DNA of 34,213 nt, from positions 1 to 34,213 of the forward strand of contig WPAE01000017.1 in NCBI GenBank assembly GCA_009773205.1, written 5' to 3'. Origin of the DNA: Ignavibacteria bacterium. Its GTDB lineage: Bacteria; Bacteroidota; Ignavibacteria; Ignavibacteriales; Melioribacteraceae. The notes beneath the pieces are model-generated. The model saw only the letters and a program-made list of their open reading frames with translations, made no database searches and was not told where the DNA came from. How positions within the stretch are numbered: the stretch's first letter is position 1; each line of letters starts with the position of its first letter. A program made the translations under genes and the position numbers. This document shows positions 4,112-13,170 of the stretch, in pieces.

Positions 4112-4191
4112 TCATTCACCTTAAAATTCTTAGTTAAATATAAATGAGCCTACTCTAAAAAACCATGATCATTATTAAAAAGCGTTGTTTT

Positions 4192-4303
4192 CGACCTACC
4201 CGCCCAACCCTCCATAAAACGGCTGGCGGGCAGGAAATCGTAACCAGAAATTGTCAAAATGACCTTTCCTGCCTGCCATGTTTGGTCTAAAGAGGCAGGC
4301 GGG
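4192..4303. repeat. Pair of GC-rich palindromes
   Basis: Two hairpins stand out from AT-rich surroundings. In the first (4192-4240) CCCGCC pairs with GGCGGG, with outer CT/AG and CGA/TCG pairs. In the second (4268-4303) CCTGCCTGCC pairs with GGCAGGCGGG, with one mismatch. The same CCTGCC/GGCGGG vocabulary occurs at 4496-4512, 6434-6484, 12034-12064 and 18230-18257, so this is one family of interspersed modules. Neither hairpin is followed by a T tract, so they are not ordinary terminators. Confidence 0.75.
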
Positions 4304-4450
4304 TTAGATTCGGCTCATAAATGAGTTCAGTCCAAAAAGGTACAATAGTTCAAAAAAATTTTTTATATACGAATCTGGTCTAATAATGAAAATTAGGAAA
4401 AGAGTGTTTTGGGTTTAACACCTTTGTTGAAACTGGTTTTTAAAATTAAC

Positions 4451-4570
4451 GGCACCTCTAAAAATTAGGTTTTATAAAAATTTACCCACGCCAAAAAAAG
4501 GCGGGCGGGCGCCGAGTTCGTTAAGAAAACTAAAAGCCCGCAAAGTATATTGGTATTTTTAGAGGCGCCC
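4451..4570 (+). repeat. AT-rich inverted-terminus element, copy A
   Basis: A 120-base element is bounded by CCTCTAAAAAT on the left and its inverted copy ATTTTTAGAGG on the right. It matches copy B (13074-13170) across most of its length, including the segment AAGAAAACTAAAAGCCCGC. Copy A carries an extra GC-rich stretch of about 25 bases (roughly 4486-4513, with a GCC/GGC hairpin) where copy B has only CAGCAG. The size and terminal symmetry resemble a MITE or REP-type non-autonomous element. No coding sequence lies inside. Confidence 0.8.
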
Positions 4571-4872
4571 TTAAGATAAACGATTAATGCAGAATAATTT
4601 TCACAAAGAATGCCTAGTTTTTATAGTGTACTAATTCTTTATTCTTGTTTTTGCAAATACTATTCTCATAAACGGAAAATATTCTTAGGGAAAATCGAAA
4701 AAACAAACAAAAATAGGGGCACAACTTTTGAATGTAATGCTCGACTAGAAAGTTGTGAAAACAACAGATAGTGTCTGAATTCGATAAAGCAAATTTTATA
4801 TAGATTTTTGTTTAGCTTCACTTAGAATTACGTTATAGAAAACTTATTCGCTAATAAAAATGTTTTCAAACT
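4571..4872. other. Leader region upstream of the hdr-flx cluster
   Basis: This AT-rich gap between copy A and hdrC contains no gene. The promoter of the hdr-flx cluster should lie here. The best candidate is the TATAGATTTTTG stretch near 4798-4809, which fits TAnnTTTG only with one extra base, so no promoter is called. No riboswitch or attenuator is apparent. Confidence 0.4.
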
Positions 4873-5415
4873 GTGAATCGAATGAATACAAGATCAGCTA
4901 GTACTGTAACCCTCTCCGACAAAATCGAAAGACTCACGAATGAATCTCCAATGTTATGTTATCAATGCGGGAAATGCTCTGCCGGTTGCCCGGTAAGGAG
5001 CCACATGGATGATTCGCCAAATCAAGTAATTCGTTTTACTCAGTTAGGATTCGATGATAAAACTCTCAAATCAAAAACACCTTGGCTTTGTGCCGGATGT
5101 TTGACTTGCAGTGCCCGCTGTCCGCAAAACTTAGATGTTGCCAAATTCATGGATGCAGTTCGCCAAATTGCTTTAGAAGAAAATATTGAGATTGTCGAGA
5201 AAGATACTGTGGCTTTTCACAAAGCATTTCTAAATCAAATTAAAAAACATGGAAGAGCCTTTGAGTTTGGATTAGTTAGAGAGTACAAACTAAAAACACT
5301 AAACCTACTTCAAGATATTGATGTTGCGCCAGAAATGCTGTTAAAAGGGAAACTTAGTTTACTGCCTCACCAAGTAAAAGATAAAAAGCATGTCAAAAAA
5401 ATTTTTGAGAAATAG
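4873..5415 (+). CDS. hdrC: Heterodisulfide reductase-like subunit C, two [4Fe-4S] clusters
   Basis: This is the small iron-sulfur subunit that relays electrons from HdrA to the HdrB active site. Two ferredoxin motifs are visible: CYQCGKCSAGCP with Cys at 29, 32, 35 and 39, and CAGCLTCSARCP with Cys at 73, 76, 79 and 83. At 180 residues it is HdrC-sized. The frame opens with GTG at 4873 and has an ATG at 4882; neither has a clear Shine-Dalgarno, so the start is uncertain by three codons. It is the first gene of a seven-gene same-strand cluster, with hdrB 15 bases downstream. In methanogens HdrC works on CoM-S-S-CoB; in bacteria the disulfide substrate is not settled. Confidence 0.92.
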   Translation: MNRMNTRSASTVTLSDKIERLTNESPMLCYQCGKCSAGCPVRSHMDDSPNQVIRFTQLGFDDKTLKSKTPWLCAGCLTCSARCPQNLDVAKFMDAVRQIALEENIEIVEKDTVAFHKAFLNQIKKHGRAFEFGLVREYKLKTLNLLQDIDVAPEMLLKGKLSLLPHQVKDKKHVKKIFEK

Positions 5416-5430
5416 ATAAGGGTAAGTCCT

Positions 5431-6282
5431 TTGAAAATTGGTTATTATCCTGGTTGCTCTCTGCTGGGAACCGGAAAAGAGTATGATCTTTCGTTGCGAA
5501 AGATTTTACAAAAGCTTGATGTGGAACTTGAAGAATTGAATGATTGGTCTTGTTGTGGTGCTACATCGGCTCATGCAACAAATCATTTAATGTCAATCGC
5601 GCTGCCCGCAATTAATCTTTCCATTGCAGAAAAACAAAAAATAAATGAACTGTTTGCACCTTGCGCAGCCTGCTACAATAGAATGATAGTTGCTAAGCAC
5701 GAACTTGACAATACTCCGCTGCTTGCAAAGCAAGTTTCTGATTTGATAGAAAAACCAATCAACTTTGCAGTAGATATTATTAATGTTGTTGAATTGTTTG
5801 AGAGAATTGGGGTTAAGAAAATTGAAGAAGCGCGAGCCACAAACCTTAAAGGAATTAAAGCTGCTTGTTATTATGGATGCTTGCTTGTTCGTCCATTTAA
5901 CATAACTCACTTTGATGATGCCGAGCAGCCAACTTCGATGGAAAAAATTATTGCTGCAACTGGCGCCGAAGCCATTGACTGGAATTATAAAATTGAATGC
6001 TGCGGTGGTGCTCATTCAATTGCTCACAAAGAGATTGTGGTTGATCTCTCAAAGAAAATTTTAGATGATGCAAAATTTCACGGCGCTGATGTGGTGGTGG
6101 TTGCCTGCCCGATGTGTCATTCAAACTTAGATATGCGTCAGCGCTCAATGAAGAATCATCAAGAGATTCCTGTTTTGTATCTATCCGAGTTCATCGGACT
6201 CGCACTCGGAGTTTCACCAAAAGAACTTGGAGTTGATTTGCATTTTGTATCAGCCGAACCATTGATACAAAAGATTAGCTGA
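5431..6282 (+). CDS. hdrB: Heterodisulfide reductase-like subunit B, two CCG domains
   Basis: This is the catalytic disulfide-reducing subunit. Both cysteine-rich CCG domains are complete. Domain 1 has Cys 9, the CC pair at 41-42, and 78 and 81. Domain 2 has Cys 146 and 150, the CC pair at 190-191, and 226 and 229. These ligate the two non-cubane [4Fe-4S] clusters in characterised HdrB, so the active site looks intact. The start is a TTG at 5431, preceded by AAGGGTAAG at about the right distance; the protein then opens directly into the conserved KIGYYPGCS segment, which supports it. At 283 residues it is of normal length. It follows hdrC by 15 bases and is separated from hdrA by a 322-base palindrome-filled gap. 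Confidence 0.93.
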   Translation: MKIGYYPGCSLLGTGKEYDLSLRKILQKLDVELEELNDWSCCGATSAHATNHLMSIALPAINLSIAEKQKINELFAPCAACYNRMIVAKHELDNTPLLAKQVSDLIEKPINFAVDIINVVELFERIGVKKIEEARATNLKGIKAACYYGCLLVRPFNITHFDDAEQPTSMEKIIAATGAEAIDWNYKIECCGGAHSIAHKEIVVDLSKKILDDAKFHGADVVVVACPMCHSNLDMRQRSMKNHQEIPVLYLSEFIGLALGVSPKELGVDLHFVSAEPLIQKIS

Positions 6283-6283
6283 T

Positions 6284-6573
6284 TTTTATTGCCACAACCT
6301 TAAGAGACTAAGTGAAAATGGCAATAAAATTAGTAGGCGCAACTTTCAAGTTGCGGTTTTTAATCCGCCAGAGGCGGACGATGGTCAAATTCCCCGCCTC
6401 TTGAGGCGAATAAATAAAATTTGTTTTCAGAAACCTCGCTGCCCCCGCCTGCCAAAGCAAAGCGGCGGGCAGGTTGCGGCGAGGAGATTCATTAAAAACG
6501 CAAGCTGAAGCTTGCGGCTACTCTAAAGATTTTAATATTAACACGGACTCTTAAGGTCGTGGCAATAATAAAA
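6284..6573. repeat. Multi-layer nested inverted repeat between hdrB and hdrA
   Basis: Three shells of inverted repeat are nested. In the outer shell, 6284-6306 (TTTTATTGCCAC, AA, CCTTAAGAG) pairs with 6548-6573. In the middle shell, 6332-6364 pairs with 6491-6522 through AGTAG/CTACT and GTTTTTAAT/ATTAAAAAC, and each arm also folds on itself (GCAACTTTCAAGTTGC and CGCAAGCTGAAGCTTGCG). The core contains CCGCC-AGA-GGCGG at 6365-6377, a CGCCTC/GAGGCG hairpin near 6395-6408, and CCTCGC/GCGAGG enclosing CCCGCC/GGCGGG at 6434-6484. A competing 11-base local hairpin (TTTTATTGCCA with TGGCAATAAAA, ending at 6329) exists in the left part. No T tract follows, so it may shape mRNA processing rather than termination. 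Confidence 0.8.
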
Positions 6574-6604
6574 CTTGATTTTTGTTGATTAATGAGAGAT
6601 TGAA

Positions 6605-8602
6605 ATGAGAATAGGCGTTTTTATATGTCACTGCGGAGAGAACATTGGCAGAACGGTAGATTGCGAAGTTGTTGCAGAATCTTGCGGAAGATTTCCTGGC
6701 GTGGTTTATTCTGTAGAAAACAAATACATGTGCTCGGATCCAGGGCAAAATATTGTTAAGAACGCAATCAAAGAAAAAAATCTTGATGGAATTGTTGTTG
6801 GTTCATGCTCGCCTCACATGCACGAAAAAACTTTTCGCAAAGCGTGCGCGGATGCCGGATTGAATCCATACTTATTTGAAATGGCGAACTTACGCGAACA
6901 TTGCTCTTGGGTTCACGAAGATAAAGTTGAAGCAACTAAAAAGGCGATTGACTTAACAAGAATAGCAGTGGAAAAAGTTAAGCGTAATGATCCGCTTTCA
7001 CCAATTCGCGTTCCAGTTACAAAACGCTCCTTAGTAATCGGCGGAGGAATTTCGGGAATTCAAGCAGCGCTTGATATAGCCAACGCCGGTTTTGAAGTTG
7101 TGCTAGTTGAGAAAGAGCCATCTATTGGCGGACACATGAGCCAGCTAAGCGAAACATTTCCTACGCTTGATTGCTCGCAGTGTATTCTTACTCCTCGAAT
7201 GGTGGAAGTATATCAGCATCCTAAAATTAAATTACTAACTTATTCAGAAGTTGAAAATGTAGAAGGCTTCATCGGTAACTTCAAAGTTACTATTAGAAAA
7301 AAAGCCCGCTCCATTGATGAAACAAAATGCAACGGATGCGGCAACTGTCAGCAGAAATGCCCTATCAAGAAAAAGGCTTACAACGAGTTTGAAGAAAACT
7401 TAGCATTTCGTCCGGCAATTTATGTTCCTTTTCCACAAGCAGTTCCAAACATTCCGGTGATTGATAGAAATGCTTGCACATACTATCAAACCGGCAAATG
7501 TCAAATGTGTGTTAAAGTTTGCGGGCGCGAAGCAATCATGTTCGAACAAGAAGATTCTTTTGTTACGGAAGATGTAGGCTCTATCATTGTTGCAACCGGA
7601 TACAAACTTTATACAATAGACAAGAAACCTGAAGAAAGTGAAATTAAAGGTTATGGCGAATATGGATACGGAAGATATAAAGATGTAATTGATGGACTTC
7701 AGTTTGAAAGAATAGCGAGTGCATCCGGACCAACCTCCGGAGAAATTCTTCGTCCATCTGATAAAACTGTGCCGAAGAAAATTGTTTTCATCCAATGTGT
7801 CGGTTCGCGCGATGAGGCAAAGGGATTTTCTTACTGCAGCAAAATTTGCTGCATGTACACGGCTAAGCACGCAATGCTTTACAAACATAAAGTTCACGAA
7901 GGTGAAGCTTACGTTTTCTACATGGACATACGTGCCGGAGGAAAAGGTTACGATGAATTTGTTCGCCGGGCAATTGAAGAAGATCATGTAAAATATATTC
8001 GCGGAAGAGTTTCTCGTATTTACGAAGAAAAAGGAAAGTACATTGTAAAAGGTGTAGATACGTTAAGCAACATGAATGTAACAATTGATGCCGACATGGT
8101 TGTGCTTGCAACTGCTATGGTTGCACAGCCAAACGCTGCTAAACTCGCGCAGACAATAGGAATGTCTTATGATAAATATGGTTTCTACAATGAAGCCCAC
8201 CCAAAGCTTCGTCCCGTTGAAGTAAGCACAGCCGGAGTTTTTCTTGCAGGCGCTTGTCAATCACCAAAAGATATTCCCGAATCTGTTTCGATGGCGTCGG
8301 CCGCGGCAAGTAAATCGCTTGTTTTATTTGGTTCAGATATTCTAGAACGCGAACCAACAATTGCAAAAGTGAATGAATCGGTTTGTGCCGGTTGCTTTTA
8401 CTGCCAAAAAGTATGCGCTTACAATGCAGTTGAAAGAAAAGAAATAAAAGACCGTAACGGTAATGTTGTTAAAGTGATAGCTTATGTAAACTCAGGATTG
8501 TGCCAAGGATGTGGAACGTGCAATGCAGTGTGCCCATCAAAATCTGTTGAGCTAATTGGTTTTACCGATGAACAGATTTATGCAGAAATAAATGCTTTGT
8601 AA
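6605..8602 (+). CDS. hdrA: Heterodisulfide reductase-like subunit A, FAD and multiple [4Fe-4S]
   Basis: This is the flavin subunit that in characterised complexes bifurcates electrons between a low-potential acceptor and HdrBC. The order is: an N-terminal CHCGENIGRTVD segment; the FAD-binding GGGISG at 146-151 followed by GGHMSQLSETFPTLDC; an inserted cluster motif CNGCGNCQQKCP (Cys 242-252); a CX7CX2CX3C stretch at 291-306; and two C-terminal motifs, CAGCFYCQKVC (594-604) and CQGCGTCNAVCP (633-643). The 665-residue length is normal for a full HdrA. The ATG at 6605 follows GAGAGATTGAA. flxD is next, 151 bases on. Whether this HdrA truly bifurcates cannot be read from sequence, but the complete cluster set is consistent with it. 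Confidence 0.95.
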   Translation: MRIGVFICHCGENIGRTVDCEVVAESCGRFPGVVYSVENKYMCSDPGQNIVKNAIKEKNLDGIVVGSCSPHMHEKTFRKACADAGLNPYLFEMANLREHCSWVHEDKVEATKKAIDLTRIAVEKVKRNDPLSPIRVPVTKRSLVIGGGISGIQAALDIANAGFEVVLVEKEPSIGGHMSQLSETFPTLDCSQCILTPRMVEVYQHPKIKLLTYSEVENVEGFIGNFKVTIRKKARSIDETKCNGCGNCQQKCPIKKKAYNEFEENLAFRPAIYVPFPQAVPNIPVIDRNACTYYQTGKCQMCVKVCGREAIMFEQEDSFVTEDVGSIIVATGYKLYTIDKKPEESEIKGYGEYGYGRYKDVIDGLQFERIASASGPTSGEILRPSDKTVPKKIVFIQCVGSRDEAKGFSYCSKICCMYTAKHAMLYKHKVHEGEAYVFYMDIRAGGKGYDEFVRRAIEEDHVKYIRGRVSRIYEEKGKYIVKGVDTLSNMNVTIDADMVVLATAMVAQPNAAKLAQTIGMSYDKYGFYNEAHPKLRPVEVSTAGVFLAGACQSPKDIPESVSMASAAASKSLVLFGSDILEREPTIAKVNESVCAGCFYCQKVCAYNAVERKEIKDRNGNVVKVIAYVNSGLCQGCGTCNAVCPSKSVELIGFTDEQIYAEINAL

Positions 8603-8611
8603 TTAATTCAT

Positions 8612-8680
8612 GTCTTGCTGAGCAAAGCGAAGCATCTCAAATTCTGATTCTTCGTCACTTCGTTCCTCAGAATGACAATG
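8612..8680. repeat. Interspersed imperfect palindrome in the hdrA-flxD gap
   Basis: The gap between hdrA and flxD carries an imperfect palindrome whose outer arms include CTGAG and CTCAG and whose inner arms are made of GCGAAG/CTTCGT-type words. A second low-complexity stretch at about 8685-8750 has TTAGCGACTCTGCGTCTTAGC and CGCAAAG repeats. The flxD ribosome-binding site (AAAGGA) lies at its edge. No coding sequence is present. Confidence 0.5.
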
Positions 8681-8753
8681 TAAATCTTAGCGACTCTGCG
8701 TCTTAGCAAGATATTTTTTCTCGCAAAGCCGCGAAGAACGCAAAGGAAAAATT

Positions 8754-9200
8754 ATGGAAGAAAAAAAGTTTGAACCCAAAATTGCAGCATTCGTTTGCAA
8801 CTGGTGCACTTACACAGGTGCTGATTTAGCAGGTACATCTCGGTTGAAATATGCGCCGAATATTAAAATGATTCGCGTTCCATGTACTGGAAGAATTGAT
8901 CCGGTGTTCATCATCAAGGCATTTGAGAAAGGCGCAGATGGAGTTCTGATTTCCGGCTGCCATCCGAATGATTGCCACTATAACACCGGAAACTTTCACG
9001 CACGCAGACGATGGATCCTATTCAAAGAGCTTTTGGATTTTGTTGGAATTGATTCAACACGGCTTCACTTCTCTTGGGTTTCTGCATCGGAAGGTAAAAA
9101 ATTTGTTGATGTTGTAACAGAAGTTGTTGAAACAGTTAAAAACCAAGGCAAGTTTGAAAAGTATGCAAAGATAAATGAGGAGTTTTTTATTCATGAATGA
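8754..9200 (+). CDS. flxD: MvhD/FlxD-type electron-transfer subunit
   Basis: This small [2Fe-2S] protein of the MvhD (methyl-viologen-reducing hydrogenase delta) family physically links an electron donor module to HdrA. The conserved cysteines and context are all seen: CNWCTYTGADLAG, PCTGRIDP, and GADGVLISGCHPNDCHY followed by GN..ARRR. At 148 residues it is typical. The start ATG has AAAGGA upstream. Its stop codon overlaps the start of the next gene (ATGAATGA, 9193-9200), a sign of translational coupling. The next genes are Flx-type, not hydrogenase genes, so the donor is probably NAD(P)H rather than H2; that is why it is named FlxD here rather than MvhD. Confidence 0.93.
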   Translation: MEEKKFEPKIAAFVCNWCTYTGADLAGTSRLKYAPNIKMIRVPCTGRIDPVFIIKAFEKGADGVLISGCHPNDCHYNTGNFHARRRWILFKELLDFVGIDSTRLHFSWVSASEGKKFVDVVTEVVETVKNQGKFEKYAKINEEFFIHE

Positions 9201-10059
9201 GCTTAAAGAAAAGGCTAAAGAGCTTCTTCAAAATGGAACTGTAAAAGTTATTATCGGTTTTGCCCAAGGAACAATTCCAAACAGAACAAAACCATTTATT
9301 GTGCGCAGTGTTGAAGACGCAGAAAAACTTGTGTTCAACAAGTACTGCGTAAACAATCTTGCAATGTATTTAACTCGAAAAGAATTTAAGAGAAACGGTG
9401 TCGTTGGAATTGTAGCTAAAGGTTGTGATGTAAAAGCAATCGTGCAGCTCATTCAAGAAAACCAGGTAAAAAAGGATGATGTTTATATAATCGGAATGAA
9501 CTGCAGCGGTGTTGTTTCTGAGCTTGGCGAAGAGTTTAACGAAAGCACTGTTGCAACAAAGTGTTTGCATTGTATGGTTCACACACCTCATCTGCACCAC
9601 ACTTTGCTTGGATCACTTGAAGAAACACCAAAACGTGAAGATAAAAATTTTGTGTTAATGCAAAAGATTGATTCGATGACTGCCGAAGAACGTTTTGATT
9701 TTTGGGAAGCAGAATTTGAAAGATGTGTTAAATGCTATGCGTGCCGTCAAGCATGCCCAATGTGTTACTGCGAAAAATGTATTGCAGATAAATCAATCCC
9801 GCGATGGATAGAAAGCAGCGCGCATACTCGCGGTAACTTTGCTTGGAACATGATTCGCGCGTTTCATCTTGCCGGAAGATGTGTTGGCTGCAACGAATGC
9901 GAGCGCGCTTGTCCGGCTGAAATTCCTCTTTCTCTTCTCAACAGAAAAATGGGAATGACGGCAAACAAAGAATTTGATTACATACCCGGAATGAATTTAA
10001 ACACACCAACTTTAGTTGGAACATACGATGTAAACGACCGTGAAGACTTTATTAAGTGA
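9193..10059 (+). CDS. flxC: FlxC-type iron-sulfur protein with dicluster domain
   Basis: An N-terminal alpha/beta domain of about 130 residues (VKVIIGFAQGT, GIVAKGCDVKAIVQLIQEN, VYIIGMNCSGV) is followed by cluster motifs. These are CVKCYACRQACPMCYCEKC near residue 180 and CVGCNECERACPAEIP near 240. This architecture matches the FlxC-type component of bacterial FlxABCD-HdrABC clusters, which conducts electrons between the flavin dehydrogenase side and FlxD/HdrA. The frame opens at 9175, but the ATG at 9193 has GAGGAG ten bases upstream and overlaps the flxD stop, so 9193 is the start. A hairpin (10067-10097) separates it from flxB. Assignment of the letters B and C within the cluster is less certain than family membership. 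Confidence 0.85.
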   Translation: MNELKEKAKELLQNGTVKVIIGFAQGTIPNRTKPFIVRSVEDAEKLVFNKYCVNNLAMYLTRKEFKRNGVVGIVAKGCDVKAIVQLIQENQVKKDDVYIIGMNCSGVVSELGEEFNESTVATKCLHCMVHTPHLHHTLLGSLEETPKREDKNFVLMQKIDSMTAEERFDFWEAEFERCVKCYACRQACPMCYCEKCIADKSIPRWIESSAHTRGNFAWNMIRAFHLAGRCVGCNECERACPAEIPLSLLNRKMGMTANKEFDYIPGMNLNTPTLVGTYDVNDREDFIK

Positions 10060-10066
10060 CGAAGTC

Positions 10067-10097
10067 ATCCCGAGTCCGATGAAATAGGAATCGGGAT
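10067..10097. repeat. Short palindrome in the flxC-flxB gap
   Basis: ATCCCGA (10067-10073) pairs with TCGGGAT (10091-10097) around a 17-base loop, just ahead of the flxB ribosome-binding site GGAGAGGTGA. It uses the same TCCCGA/TCGGGA arm as the mosaic repeat at 26-42. It lacks a T tract and is not a terminator. Confidence 0.6.
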
Positions 10098-10115
10098 AAA
10101 ATGGAGAGGTGAACT

Positions 10116-11168
10116 ATGGAAGAAAAACTAATTAGCAAAGTAAATTTGAAAATGCTTGTTGCTGATTTGATTAAGGCAAATCACATTGTTGTTGGACAAG
10201 ACGAAAAGGCTGTGGGATGGAAACGGTTATCGCATACTGATGAGATTGTTGTAAACAGCAACGGCGTACCTTCAAATCTTTCTTACAAAGAATTCTTGTT
10301 TGCAAAAACAGAGCCGATTTTTTACTTCCGCAACAACAAAGACAATTATGATTTAATCGAACCCGCTAATGTCGCGGCCAGCCCAAACCTTGATGAGCAA
10401 AAAATAGTTATTCTTGGTGCAAAACCTTGCGATGCCCCTTCAATAGAAATTATGAGTCACGTTTTCAACTGGGATTATAAAGACAAATTCTTCAATGAAA
10501 AAGCAGAGCGTTCTATTGTAATAGGATTAGCTTGCCATTATCAAGATGAGTTTTGTTTTTGTACTTCGGTGGGATTGAATCCAACCTCAGAAGCCGGCTC
10601 CGATTTGTTTCTTGTTCCTCTTGACGATAAAAATTTTGCTATAAAGATTGTTTCTGATAAAGGAAAAGAATTTGTTCAACCGTTTATACAATACATGAGT
10701 GAAGGGAACCCTAAAGCTACATCTGAAGTTTTAGACAAAATAAAATTACAGGAAAGAAAATTTGAGCAAGCTAAAGTTCGTGAATGGATTGCACCGAATT
10801 TCGAGCACAAGATTTTTGATAAAGTTGGAGAAACTTGTTTGGGATGCGGACAGTGCGCTTTTGCTTGCCCCGTTTGCCATTGTTTTGATATTGTTGATGA
10901 AGAATGCAATTACACTTGCGGTCGTAGAATGAAAAACTGGGACGCGTGCCAATTTGGTTTGTTTACGATTCATGGTTCAGGGCATAATCCGCGCGATACA
11001 CAAGGCAAACGCTACCGCCAGCGCATCGCTCATAAGTTCAAATATTATCAAGATAAGTTTGGCAAAACACTTTGCACCGGATGCGGAAGATGCAGCCGTG
11101 GCTGCCCCGTTGGAATTGATATTGCTCAAGTTGTAAGAGAAATAAATTTAGTTGCAAACCAAGTTTAG
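10116..11168 (+). CDS. flxB: FlxB-type iron-sulfur subunit (HydB/AsrA family)
   Basis: This is an iron-sulfur protein of the sulfhydrogenase-beta / anaerobic sulfite reductase A type, the partner of the NAD(P)H-oxidising flavoprotein encoded next. Features in order: ILGAKPCDAPSIEIM; a HYQDEFCFCTSVGLNP segment; then two ferredoxin motifs, CLGCGQCAFACPVCHC near residue 240 and CTGCGRCSRGCPVGIDI near 325. At 350 residues it is full length for the family. The ATG at 10116 sits after GGAGAGGTGA. flxA follows after 8 bases. In an isolated setting it could be read as hydrogenase or sulfite reductase subunit, but no hydrogenase large subunit or AsrC is present and the hdr genes next to it favour FlxB. 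Confidence 0.9.
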   Translation: MEEKLISKVNLKMLVADLIKANHIVVGQDEKAVGWKRLSHTDEIVVNSNGVPSNLSYKEFLFAKTEPIFYFRNNKDNYDLIEPANVAASPNLDEQKIVILGAKPCDAPSIEIMSHVFNWDYKDKFFNEKAERSIVIGLACHYQDEFCFCTSVGLNPTSEAGSDLFLVPLDDKNFAIKIVSDKGKEFVQPFIQYMSEGNPKATSEVLDKIKLQERKFEQAKVREWIAPNFEHKIFDKVGETCLGCGQCAFACPVCHCFDIVDEECNYTCGRRMKNWDACQFGLFTIHGSGHNPRDTQGKRYRQRIAHKFKYYQDKFGKTLCTGCGRCSRGCPVGIDIAQVVREINLVANQV

Positions 11169-11176
11169 GAATTAAC

Positions 11177-12016
11177 ATGTGCCGCAATAACATCTACAAA
11201 CCGGAATTGATGGAAGTAACCGATATCATTGATGAAACATTTGATACTAAAACATTTCGCCTAAAATTTAGAGATGAGAATGTTGCAAAGAATTTTTCTT
11301 TCAAAGCAGGGCAGTTTGGCGAGTACTCCGTATTTGGAGAAGGTGAATCAACATTTTGTATTGCCTCATCACCAACAAGAGAAGATTACATAGAATGTTC
11401 CTTCAAGAAAATAGGAAAAGTTACAACTGCCCTTAATAGAATTAGTGTTGGCGATACAATCGGCTTTCGCGGTCCATACGGAAATTATTTTCCGGTTGAA
11501 GTTATGAAAGGAAAGAATGTTCTATTTATTGCAGGTGGAATTGGTCTTGCGCCGGTACGTTGCGTTATATGGAATACTCTGGATCTCCGCGATAAATTTA
11601 AAGACATAACAATTGTTTACGGCGCACGTTCTTTTAACGATCTTGTTTACAAACGTGAACTAAAAGAATGGAAAGAGCGCGCAGATGTTAAAACTGTTGT
11701 AACTGTTGATCCAGGTGGAGAGATTGCAGATTGGGATGGCGAAATTGGTTTCGTTCCGGCAATTGTAGAAAAAATTGCGCCGCAAAGCGAAAACACAATT
11801 GCCATTGTATGCGGGCCGCCAATTATGATAAAGTTTACAATTCCCGTTCTTCTAAAACTTGGTTTTGCCGAAGAGAACATTATTACAACTTTAGAAAACA
11901 GAATGAAATGCGGACTTGGAAAATGCGGACGCTGTAATGTTGGCAATGTTTATGTCTGTAAAGACGGTCCGGTTTTTACATACGCACAAATGAAAGAACT
12001 TCCGCAAGAGTATTAA
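11177..12016 (+). CDS. flxA: FlxA-type FAD/NAD(P)-binding oxidoreductase (HydG/AsrB family)
   Basis: This flavoprotein is expected to take electrons from NAD(P)H and pass them to FlxB and the Hdr core. It has a ferredoxin-reductase-like layout. The FAD-binding barrel carries STFCIASSPTRED. The nucleotide-binding domain carries FIAGGIGLAPVRCVIW and IVCGPPIMIKF. A C-terminal [2Fe-2S] motif, CGLGKCGRCNVGNVYVC, is typical of the PyrK/HydG/AsrB group. At 279 residues it is full length. The ATG at 11177 follows AGGA. It is the last gene of the hdrCBA-flxDCBA cluster; its stop codon is directly followed by the nested hairpin of repeat copy 2. NADH versus NADPH preference cannot be judged. Confidence 0.92.
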   Translation: MCRNNIYKPELMEVTDIIDETFDTKTFRLKFRDENVAKNFSFKAGQFGEYSVFGEGESTFCIASSPTREDYIECSFKKIGKVTTALNRISVGDTIGFRGPYGNYFPVEVMKGKNVLFIAGGIGLAPVRCVIWNTLDLRDKFKDITIVYGARSFNDLVYKRELKEWKERADVKTVVTVDPGGEIADWDGEIGFVPAIVEKIAPQSENTIAIVCGPPIMIKFTIPVLLKLGFAEENIITTLENRMKCGLGKCGRCNVGNVYVCKDGPVFTYAQMKELPQEY

Positions 12017-13073: not shown

Positions 13074-13170
13074 GGACACCTCTAAAAATTAGTTTTTATA
13101 AAAATTTACAGCAGAGTTCGCAAAGAAAACTAAAAGCCCGCAAAGTATATTGGTATTTTTAGAGGCGCCC
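13074..13170 (+). repeat. AT-rich inverted-terminus element, copy B
   Basis: This 97-base copy carries the same ends as copy A: CCTCTAAAAAT on the left and ATTTTTAGAGGCGCCC on the right. It shares the block from AGAAAACTAAAAGCCCGC to the right end with only small differences. It lacks the GC-rich insert of copy A. It ends 83 bases before the tex start codon. Confidence 0.8.

Follow-up and report, generated by a model that had tools for sequence, protein, structure and literature searches.

How did a palindrome that holds further palindromes come to lie between the hdrB-like and hdrA-like genes of the window (the whole stretch of 34,213 nucleotides analyzed here)? The reading that we favor, with a probability of about 0.9, is that small nonautonomous mobile elements were inserted one within another between the two genes.

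Structure of the hdrB-hdrA spacer

Nested inverted repeats were present at positions 6284 to 6573 of the window. Two arms, 6283 to 6360 and 6494 to 6571, were 71% complementary, and the 133-nt core in between contained further inverted repeats. The RNA fold of positions 6260 to 6600 reached -130.9 kcal/mol, compared with a mean of -82.3 for shuffled sequences (z = -8.5), and none of 100 shuffles equaled it. Similarly, the DNA fold of positions 6284 to 6573 (-68.7, against a shuffle mean of -36.0; z = -8.9) was equaled by none of 200 shuffles. Thus, the nested palindrome that the first-pass annotation had described between hdrB and hdrA is real, on the evidence of the inverted repeats and of both folds. 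Its three shells were right as to the nesting but not as to the number: four layers (P, D, R, and A) could be resolved, since the middle shell is made up of the arms of a MITE (D) plus a REP doublet (R). Positions 6284 to 6573, proposed as its extent, do hold the structure, but the inserted DNA probably runs somewhat beyond them and fills nearly the entire 322-nt spacer. In what follows, B stands for D plus R (6304 to 6550), and R for the inverted pair of GTAG-tagged hairpins (the REP doublet, or "REPIN"). The features are as follows.

4873-5415, + strand: hdrC-like gene (4Fe-4S protein), first of the cluster, with Pfam Fer4 domains
5431-6282, + strand: hdrB-like gene, with a CCG domain; TIGR03288 matched below cut-off
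6284-6299, unstranded: layer P, left arm of the outer hairpin, pairing with 6555-6573
6300-6303, unstranded: TTAA on the left of B, one of the two copies of its 4-bp target duplication
6304-6332, unstranded: layer D, left MITE arm (GAGACT...), aligning with B copies elsewhere
6333-6355, + strand: layer R, left GTAG-tagged hairpin, 1 of 17 places in the genome
6362-6492, + strand: layer A, 131-nt dispersed element, its inner 32 nt at 56 places in the genome
6499-6521, - strand: layer R, right GTAG-tagged hairpin, inverted, a match to the GTAG pattern
6522-6550, unstranded: layer D, right MITE arm (...CTC), aligning with B copies elsewhere
6551-6554, unstranded: TTAA on the right of B, the other copy of its 4-bp target duplication
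6555-6573, unstranded: layer P, right arm of the outer hairpin, pairing with the left arm
6605-8602, + strand: hdrA-like gene, downstream of the stack, matching HdrA/HdrA2 models below their cut-offs

Occurrence of the layers at other sites

The successive insertion of palindromic elements, as proposed in the first-pass annotation, was supported by lone layers and partial stacks elsewhere in the same genome and in genomes of the same genus, and each layer occurs elsewhere without the next layer inside it.

Layer A is a dispersed repeat. With the whole spacer as the query, 109 candidates were obtained in the genome, 40 of which (counting the window) were scored; these have unrelated flanks. A search for its inner 32 nt, tolerating up to 3 mismatches, hit 56 places, compared with 0 for the reversed-pattern control. 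For the alignment of its ends, 40 rows were used (the window plus 39), 14 of which missed one end and were dropped. In the 26 kept, the left end reads TTT (26, 24, and 26 of 26 copies, position by position), with no clear consensus beyond TTT and no matching ends. Among 48 distinct copies, 12 had the right end only and 11 the left end only. With regard to an IS200/IS605-derived origin, for which subterminal hairpins and the lack of a terminal inverted repeat would be expected, hairpins lie near both ends of A in the RNA fold, and target duplication was judged by eye alone. Only partial matches to A were found outside its own genome, in 6 of 57 other genomes (at most 14 candidates scored per genome), and a wider contig collection, from which records of this genome or of very near ones may be excluded, gave none.

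Hairpin targeting by A was rejected, a hairpin being present just to the left in 3 of 36 copies versus 8 of 331 control sites; on the right side, a hairpin was found at 2 of 37 copies, a count made without a control. A Y1 transposase was likewise rejected as the parent of A: the three Y1 loci of the genome gave short, weak matches (best E value, 0.016 over 20 nt), and no Y1 transposase gene with the ends of A was found among them. One contig ends in a fragment of an IS5-type transposase that adjoins the right portion of a copy of A (L157); because the two meet within A's own hairpin, this does not prove parentage. A hairpin-rich element, F, lies at about 4120 to 4330 of the window, and its relatives flank A copies elsewhere. 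A runs directly into the end of F in 3 of 38 distinct right-end contexts (L013, L037, and L043).

Some A copies are at or near contig ends (for example, C436:1-98 and C315:119-252), so that A does break this assembly, and the stack might accordingly be an artifact in which A was misjoined into a REPIN. We consider this very unlikely. The hdrB and hdrA genes are adjacent in 14 of the 14 relatives read, which indicates that the outer join is right, and both REPIN halves and both D arms are correctly oriented on either side of A.

In layer R, a GTAG tag stands beside an imperfect palindrome, and the hairpins occur in inverted pairs. Allowing up to 2 mismatches, the genome contains the GTAG-hairpin 17 times, including the two in the window, and the reversed-pattern control gave 0. 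REP copies usually exceed 100 per genome (PMC2817692), and the 17 places are well below that number. Pairs of R without D arms exist at L119 (in genome G001), at L127 and L066 (in G000, the genome of the window), and also at L110 and L121. Three Y1_Tnp matches were obtained in the genome, on contigs C49, C242, and C361; these contigs hold none of the 17 GTAG places, and no RAYT flanked by GTAG repeats was found in this draft assembly, from which such a gene may be missing.

Matches to B, fragments included, numbered 13 in G000, 11 in G001, and 3 in G003, and there were none in G002, G004, or G005. The window and 15 other loci were examined, giving 14 readable rows, 11 of them with both ends. 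All 10 of the other copies with both ends read lack A. Four copies (L104, L109, L112, and L114) are uninterrupted and measure 119 bp, while five (L102, L103, L105, L106, and L111) carry an insert, C, and measure 149 to 150 bp. The L113 copy (273 bp) carries C plus another insert, and the window copy, with 247 bp, corresponds to 119 bp plus A minus about 3. In each of the six copies that have it (L102, L103, L105, L106, L111, and L113), C is a GC-rich hairpin in the loop of B's right GTAG-hairpin. An alignment of five B copies showed the same arms throughout, with A in the window copy only. At L120, C is itself split by another hairpin.

The terminal inverted repeats of B are GAGRCTGTGTGAAAA on the left and the reverse complement of a similar sequence on the right (11 copies). 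As a dispersed, multicopy element devoid of a transposase gene, B is a MITE. With up to 3 mismatches allowed, G000 and G001 have 29 B-like terminal repeats between them, compared with 4 and 8 for the reversed-pattern controls. No inverted pair of these repeats 0.5 to 3 kb apart, as expected of a cognate IS, was found in G000 and G001 (open reading frames were listed at L160 only). At G000:C132:56609-56713 (L163/L177), a 105-bp MITE with B-like ends and TTAA on both sides lacks GTAG-hairpins and REPIN. D and R were presumably once separate. The window also holds two copies of another MITE-like element, with ends GGCRCCTCTAAAAAT and ATTTTTAGAGGCGCC, at 4450 to 4570 and 13074 to 13170; their flanks are TTAA/TTAA and ATAA/ATAA, respectively, and the former copy has an extra GC-rich hairpin inside.

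Palindromes are prone to template switching and to hairpin-primed repair, and the structure might in principle have grown in situ by such events, with no transposition involved. Three of the four layers, however, are repeats dispersed over unrelated sites, and we therefore regard growth in situ as extremely improbable.

Insertion target of B and probable order of events

The 4-bp flanks of B were identical in 9 of the 11 complete copies, with TTAA in 7, AAAA in L105, and TAAA in L111. An exact duplication was missing in the other two, L106 (one base differs) and L103 (no match). Outside these 4 bp, the flanks form a hairpin with at least 9 of 12 possible pairs in 7 of the 11 copies, the window copy reaching 11 of 12; pairing was weak in L102 (5 of 12), L103 (3), L105 (3), and L111 (7). 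Only 2 of 1,091 other TTAA sites in the loci examined reached 9 pairs. The corresponding Fisher P value of 3e-14 is overstated, because the B copies are related and the 7 of 11 do not represent 11 independent trials. B is usually located at the center of a hairpin, a preference seen for this layer only and not for A.

The outer hairpin of several B copies has the form CCCACG-N-TTAA-N-CGTGGG. Hairpins of this type without B were found at 13 places, 11 in G001 and 2 in the window's own genome, and at 0 places in four other genomes searched. P is the least certain of the four layers. The outer arms of the window resemble this form only loosely and, with up to 2 mismatches allowed over 19 nt, match nowhere else in the genome, so that they are placed in the P family by architecture alone. 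Furthermore, 11 nt of the left arm can pair without mismatch with positions 6319 to 6329 inside D, and the outer shell could therefore have another origin. P may be mobile too, since about 240 nt separate one of the two P-type hairpins of the own genome from a transposase gene of the IS200/IS605 type. At locus L070, several P-like hairpins lie beside a transposase gene of the IS200/IS605 type that encodes 152 aa.

The hairpin flanks of 7 of the 11 B copies could also mean that P and B are a single mobile unit in which TTAA is part of a longer terminal inverted repeat. Such a unit would need fewer insertion events, and TTAA, being palindromic, resembles a duplication either way. Three observations speak against it and make it rather unlikely. 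AAAA (L105) and TAAA (L111) are direct repeats without self-complementarity, which is what a genuine target duplication should look like; P-type hairpins stand without B at the 13 places mentioned above; and the stem letters vary among B copies, each stem matching its own partner arm.

Stepwise insertion of separate elements is well supported by copies at other sites rather than by intermediates at the hdr site itself. We infer the order of events here as P first, B next, and A last. In the first step, a hairpin centered on TTAA (P) would have arrived just after hdrB. In the second, the 119-bp B would have inserted at the central TTAA of P, duplicating it. In the third, A would have entered B in the short stretch that separates its two GTAG-hairpins, at a net cost to B of about 3 nt. 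The enzymes that moved the layers are presumed, no transposase having been found for any layer.

It is possible, albeit doubtful, that B forms part of a transposition system that reads DNA structure, hitting the TTAA at the tip of an extruded hairpin, duplicating 4 bases, and keeping the arms. If so, each insertion of B would enlarge the palindrome; should the enlarged palindromes in turn be good targets, their growth would sustain itself and would account for the mosaic of hairpins within hairpins in the intergenic regions of this genus. Through its preference for hairpin centers, B offers a way to test, in an uncultivated lineage, whether targets are chosen by structure.

Related systems and the hdr genes

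The comparisons that follow refer to the available portions of the cited papers. GTAG-15 dimers of A. variabilis and GTAG-23 dimers of T. roseum are inserted within palindromes (Di Nocera et al. 2013, PMC3733652) and share with layer R the GTAG-tagged hairpins in inverted pairs. Unlike in those dimers, a MITE with 4-bp flanking repeats lies here between the palindrome and the dimer, a further element lies inside the dimer, and the copy number is lower. The same source names Chlorobi and Bacteroidetes for the CGTC type and not for GTAG. REPINs (PMC3116915) also resemble layer R, being two inverted REPs plus a spacer that form a long hairpin, but here the copies are few and no RAYT flanked by these repeats was found.

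As regards B, QMITE2 of Coxiella is likewise a MITE with a GTAG palindrome that is itself the target of a further insertion, in that case by IS1111 (PMC10969869); here, in contrast, the later insertion is a 131-nt element and not an IS, and the MITE favors hairpin centers. IS1272 targets inverted repeats and replaces them without target duplication (PMC5678879). B shares the preference for hairpin-forming targets, and its targets are inverted repeats, but it keeps the arms and has a 4-bp duplication in 9 of 11 copies rather than replacing arms with no duplication. ISPsy8 and ISPpu9 are ISs that target REPs (PMC1525189), and in both cases REPs serve as landing sites for mobile DNA, although those elements are autonomous while the layers here are short and have no transposase.

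Thus, REP dimers within palindromes were known from the available part of PMC3733652, and the four-level stack and the targeting of TTAA at hairpin centers appear to be new. No earlier report of a four-level nested stack of REPIN, MITE, and palindrome in bacteria was found in the open-access literature, and no mention of Ignavibacter was found in the related open-access literature. An odd palindrome becomes a readable history of insertions, in which one hairpin and three families of dispersed repeats are stacked in a fixed order. For annotation, it is a warning that such spacers are the remains of mobile elements and not regulatory RNA.

HdrA was sought in 58 genomes, and 14 relatives had a readable hdrB-hdrA junction; five more loci (L086 and L088 to L091) had no readable hdrA start. 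A full HdrA match was present in only 2 of the five other same-genus genomes searched and absent from three. In those two, the spacer measured -4 nt (G001) and 3 nt (G002), that is, an empty site. It measured 4 nt in G027 and between -10 and 126 nt in the rest, except for 687 nt in G034, so long spacers are not unique to the window but occur in the distant relatives G043 (126 nt) and G034. The stepwise loss of shells for which the first-pass annotation had proposed a comparison with close relatives was therefore not found at the hdr site, both comparable genomes being empty. Absent from these two close comparisons, the only ones available, the stack would most simply be a recent arrival.

The spacer could alternatively be a functional RNA or DNA element under selection that sets the HdrB:HdrA ratio or stabilizes the hdrB message. 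It would be transcribed if the operon is, its fold is very strong, and the available parts of PMC3733652 and PMC10969869 report effects on mRNA for REPs and MITEs. Nevertheless, the element is missing in both same-genus genomes that have the gene pair, and the same sequences are scattered across unrelated sites. A known structured RNA was rejected for lack of any Rfam match across positions 4700 to 8800 (E value up to 1), as was a new promoter, with 0 promoter-like sites in the spacer versus a shuffle mean of 0.9. Selection for such a function is, on this evidence, improbable.

As RNA, the stack is predicted to form a single long, branched hairpin separating hdrB from hdrA. It might influence the stability or translation of the mRNA, or its processing, as the first-pass annotation proposed. 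Two terminator-like sites were found in the spacer (shuffle mean, 0.6), and these are the two GTAG-hairpins, one per strand. The TGA stop codon of the hdrB-like gene (6280 to 6282) abuts the stack. Judging by G001 and G002, in which the two genes nearly touch, their separation here has probably cost the translational coupling of hdrB and hdrA. The names hdrB and hdrA, taken from the first-pass annotation, hold at the level of the family and no further, the subunit models being matched below their cut-offs only; this was the case for the hdrB-like gene with the CoB-CoM heterodisulfide reductase subunit B model, and the hdrC-like gene matched the subunit C model in the same manner. After hdrA, positions 8754 to 12016 encode FlpD, two more 4Fe-4S proteins, and an FAD/NAD-binding reductase, genes that we take to resemble an electron-transfer cluster of the Hdr-Flx type.
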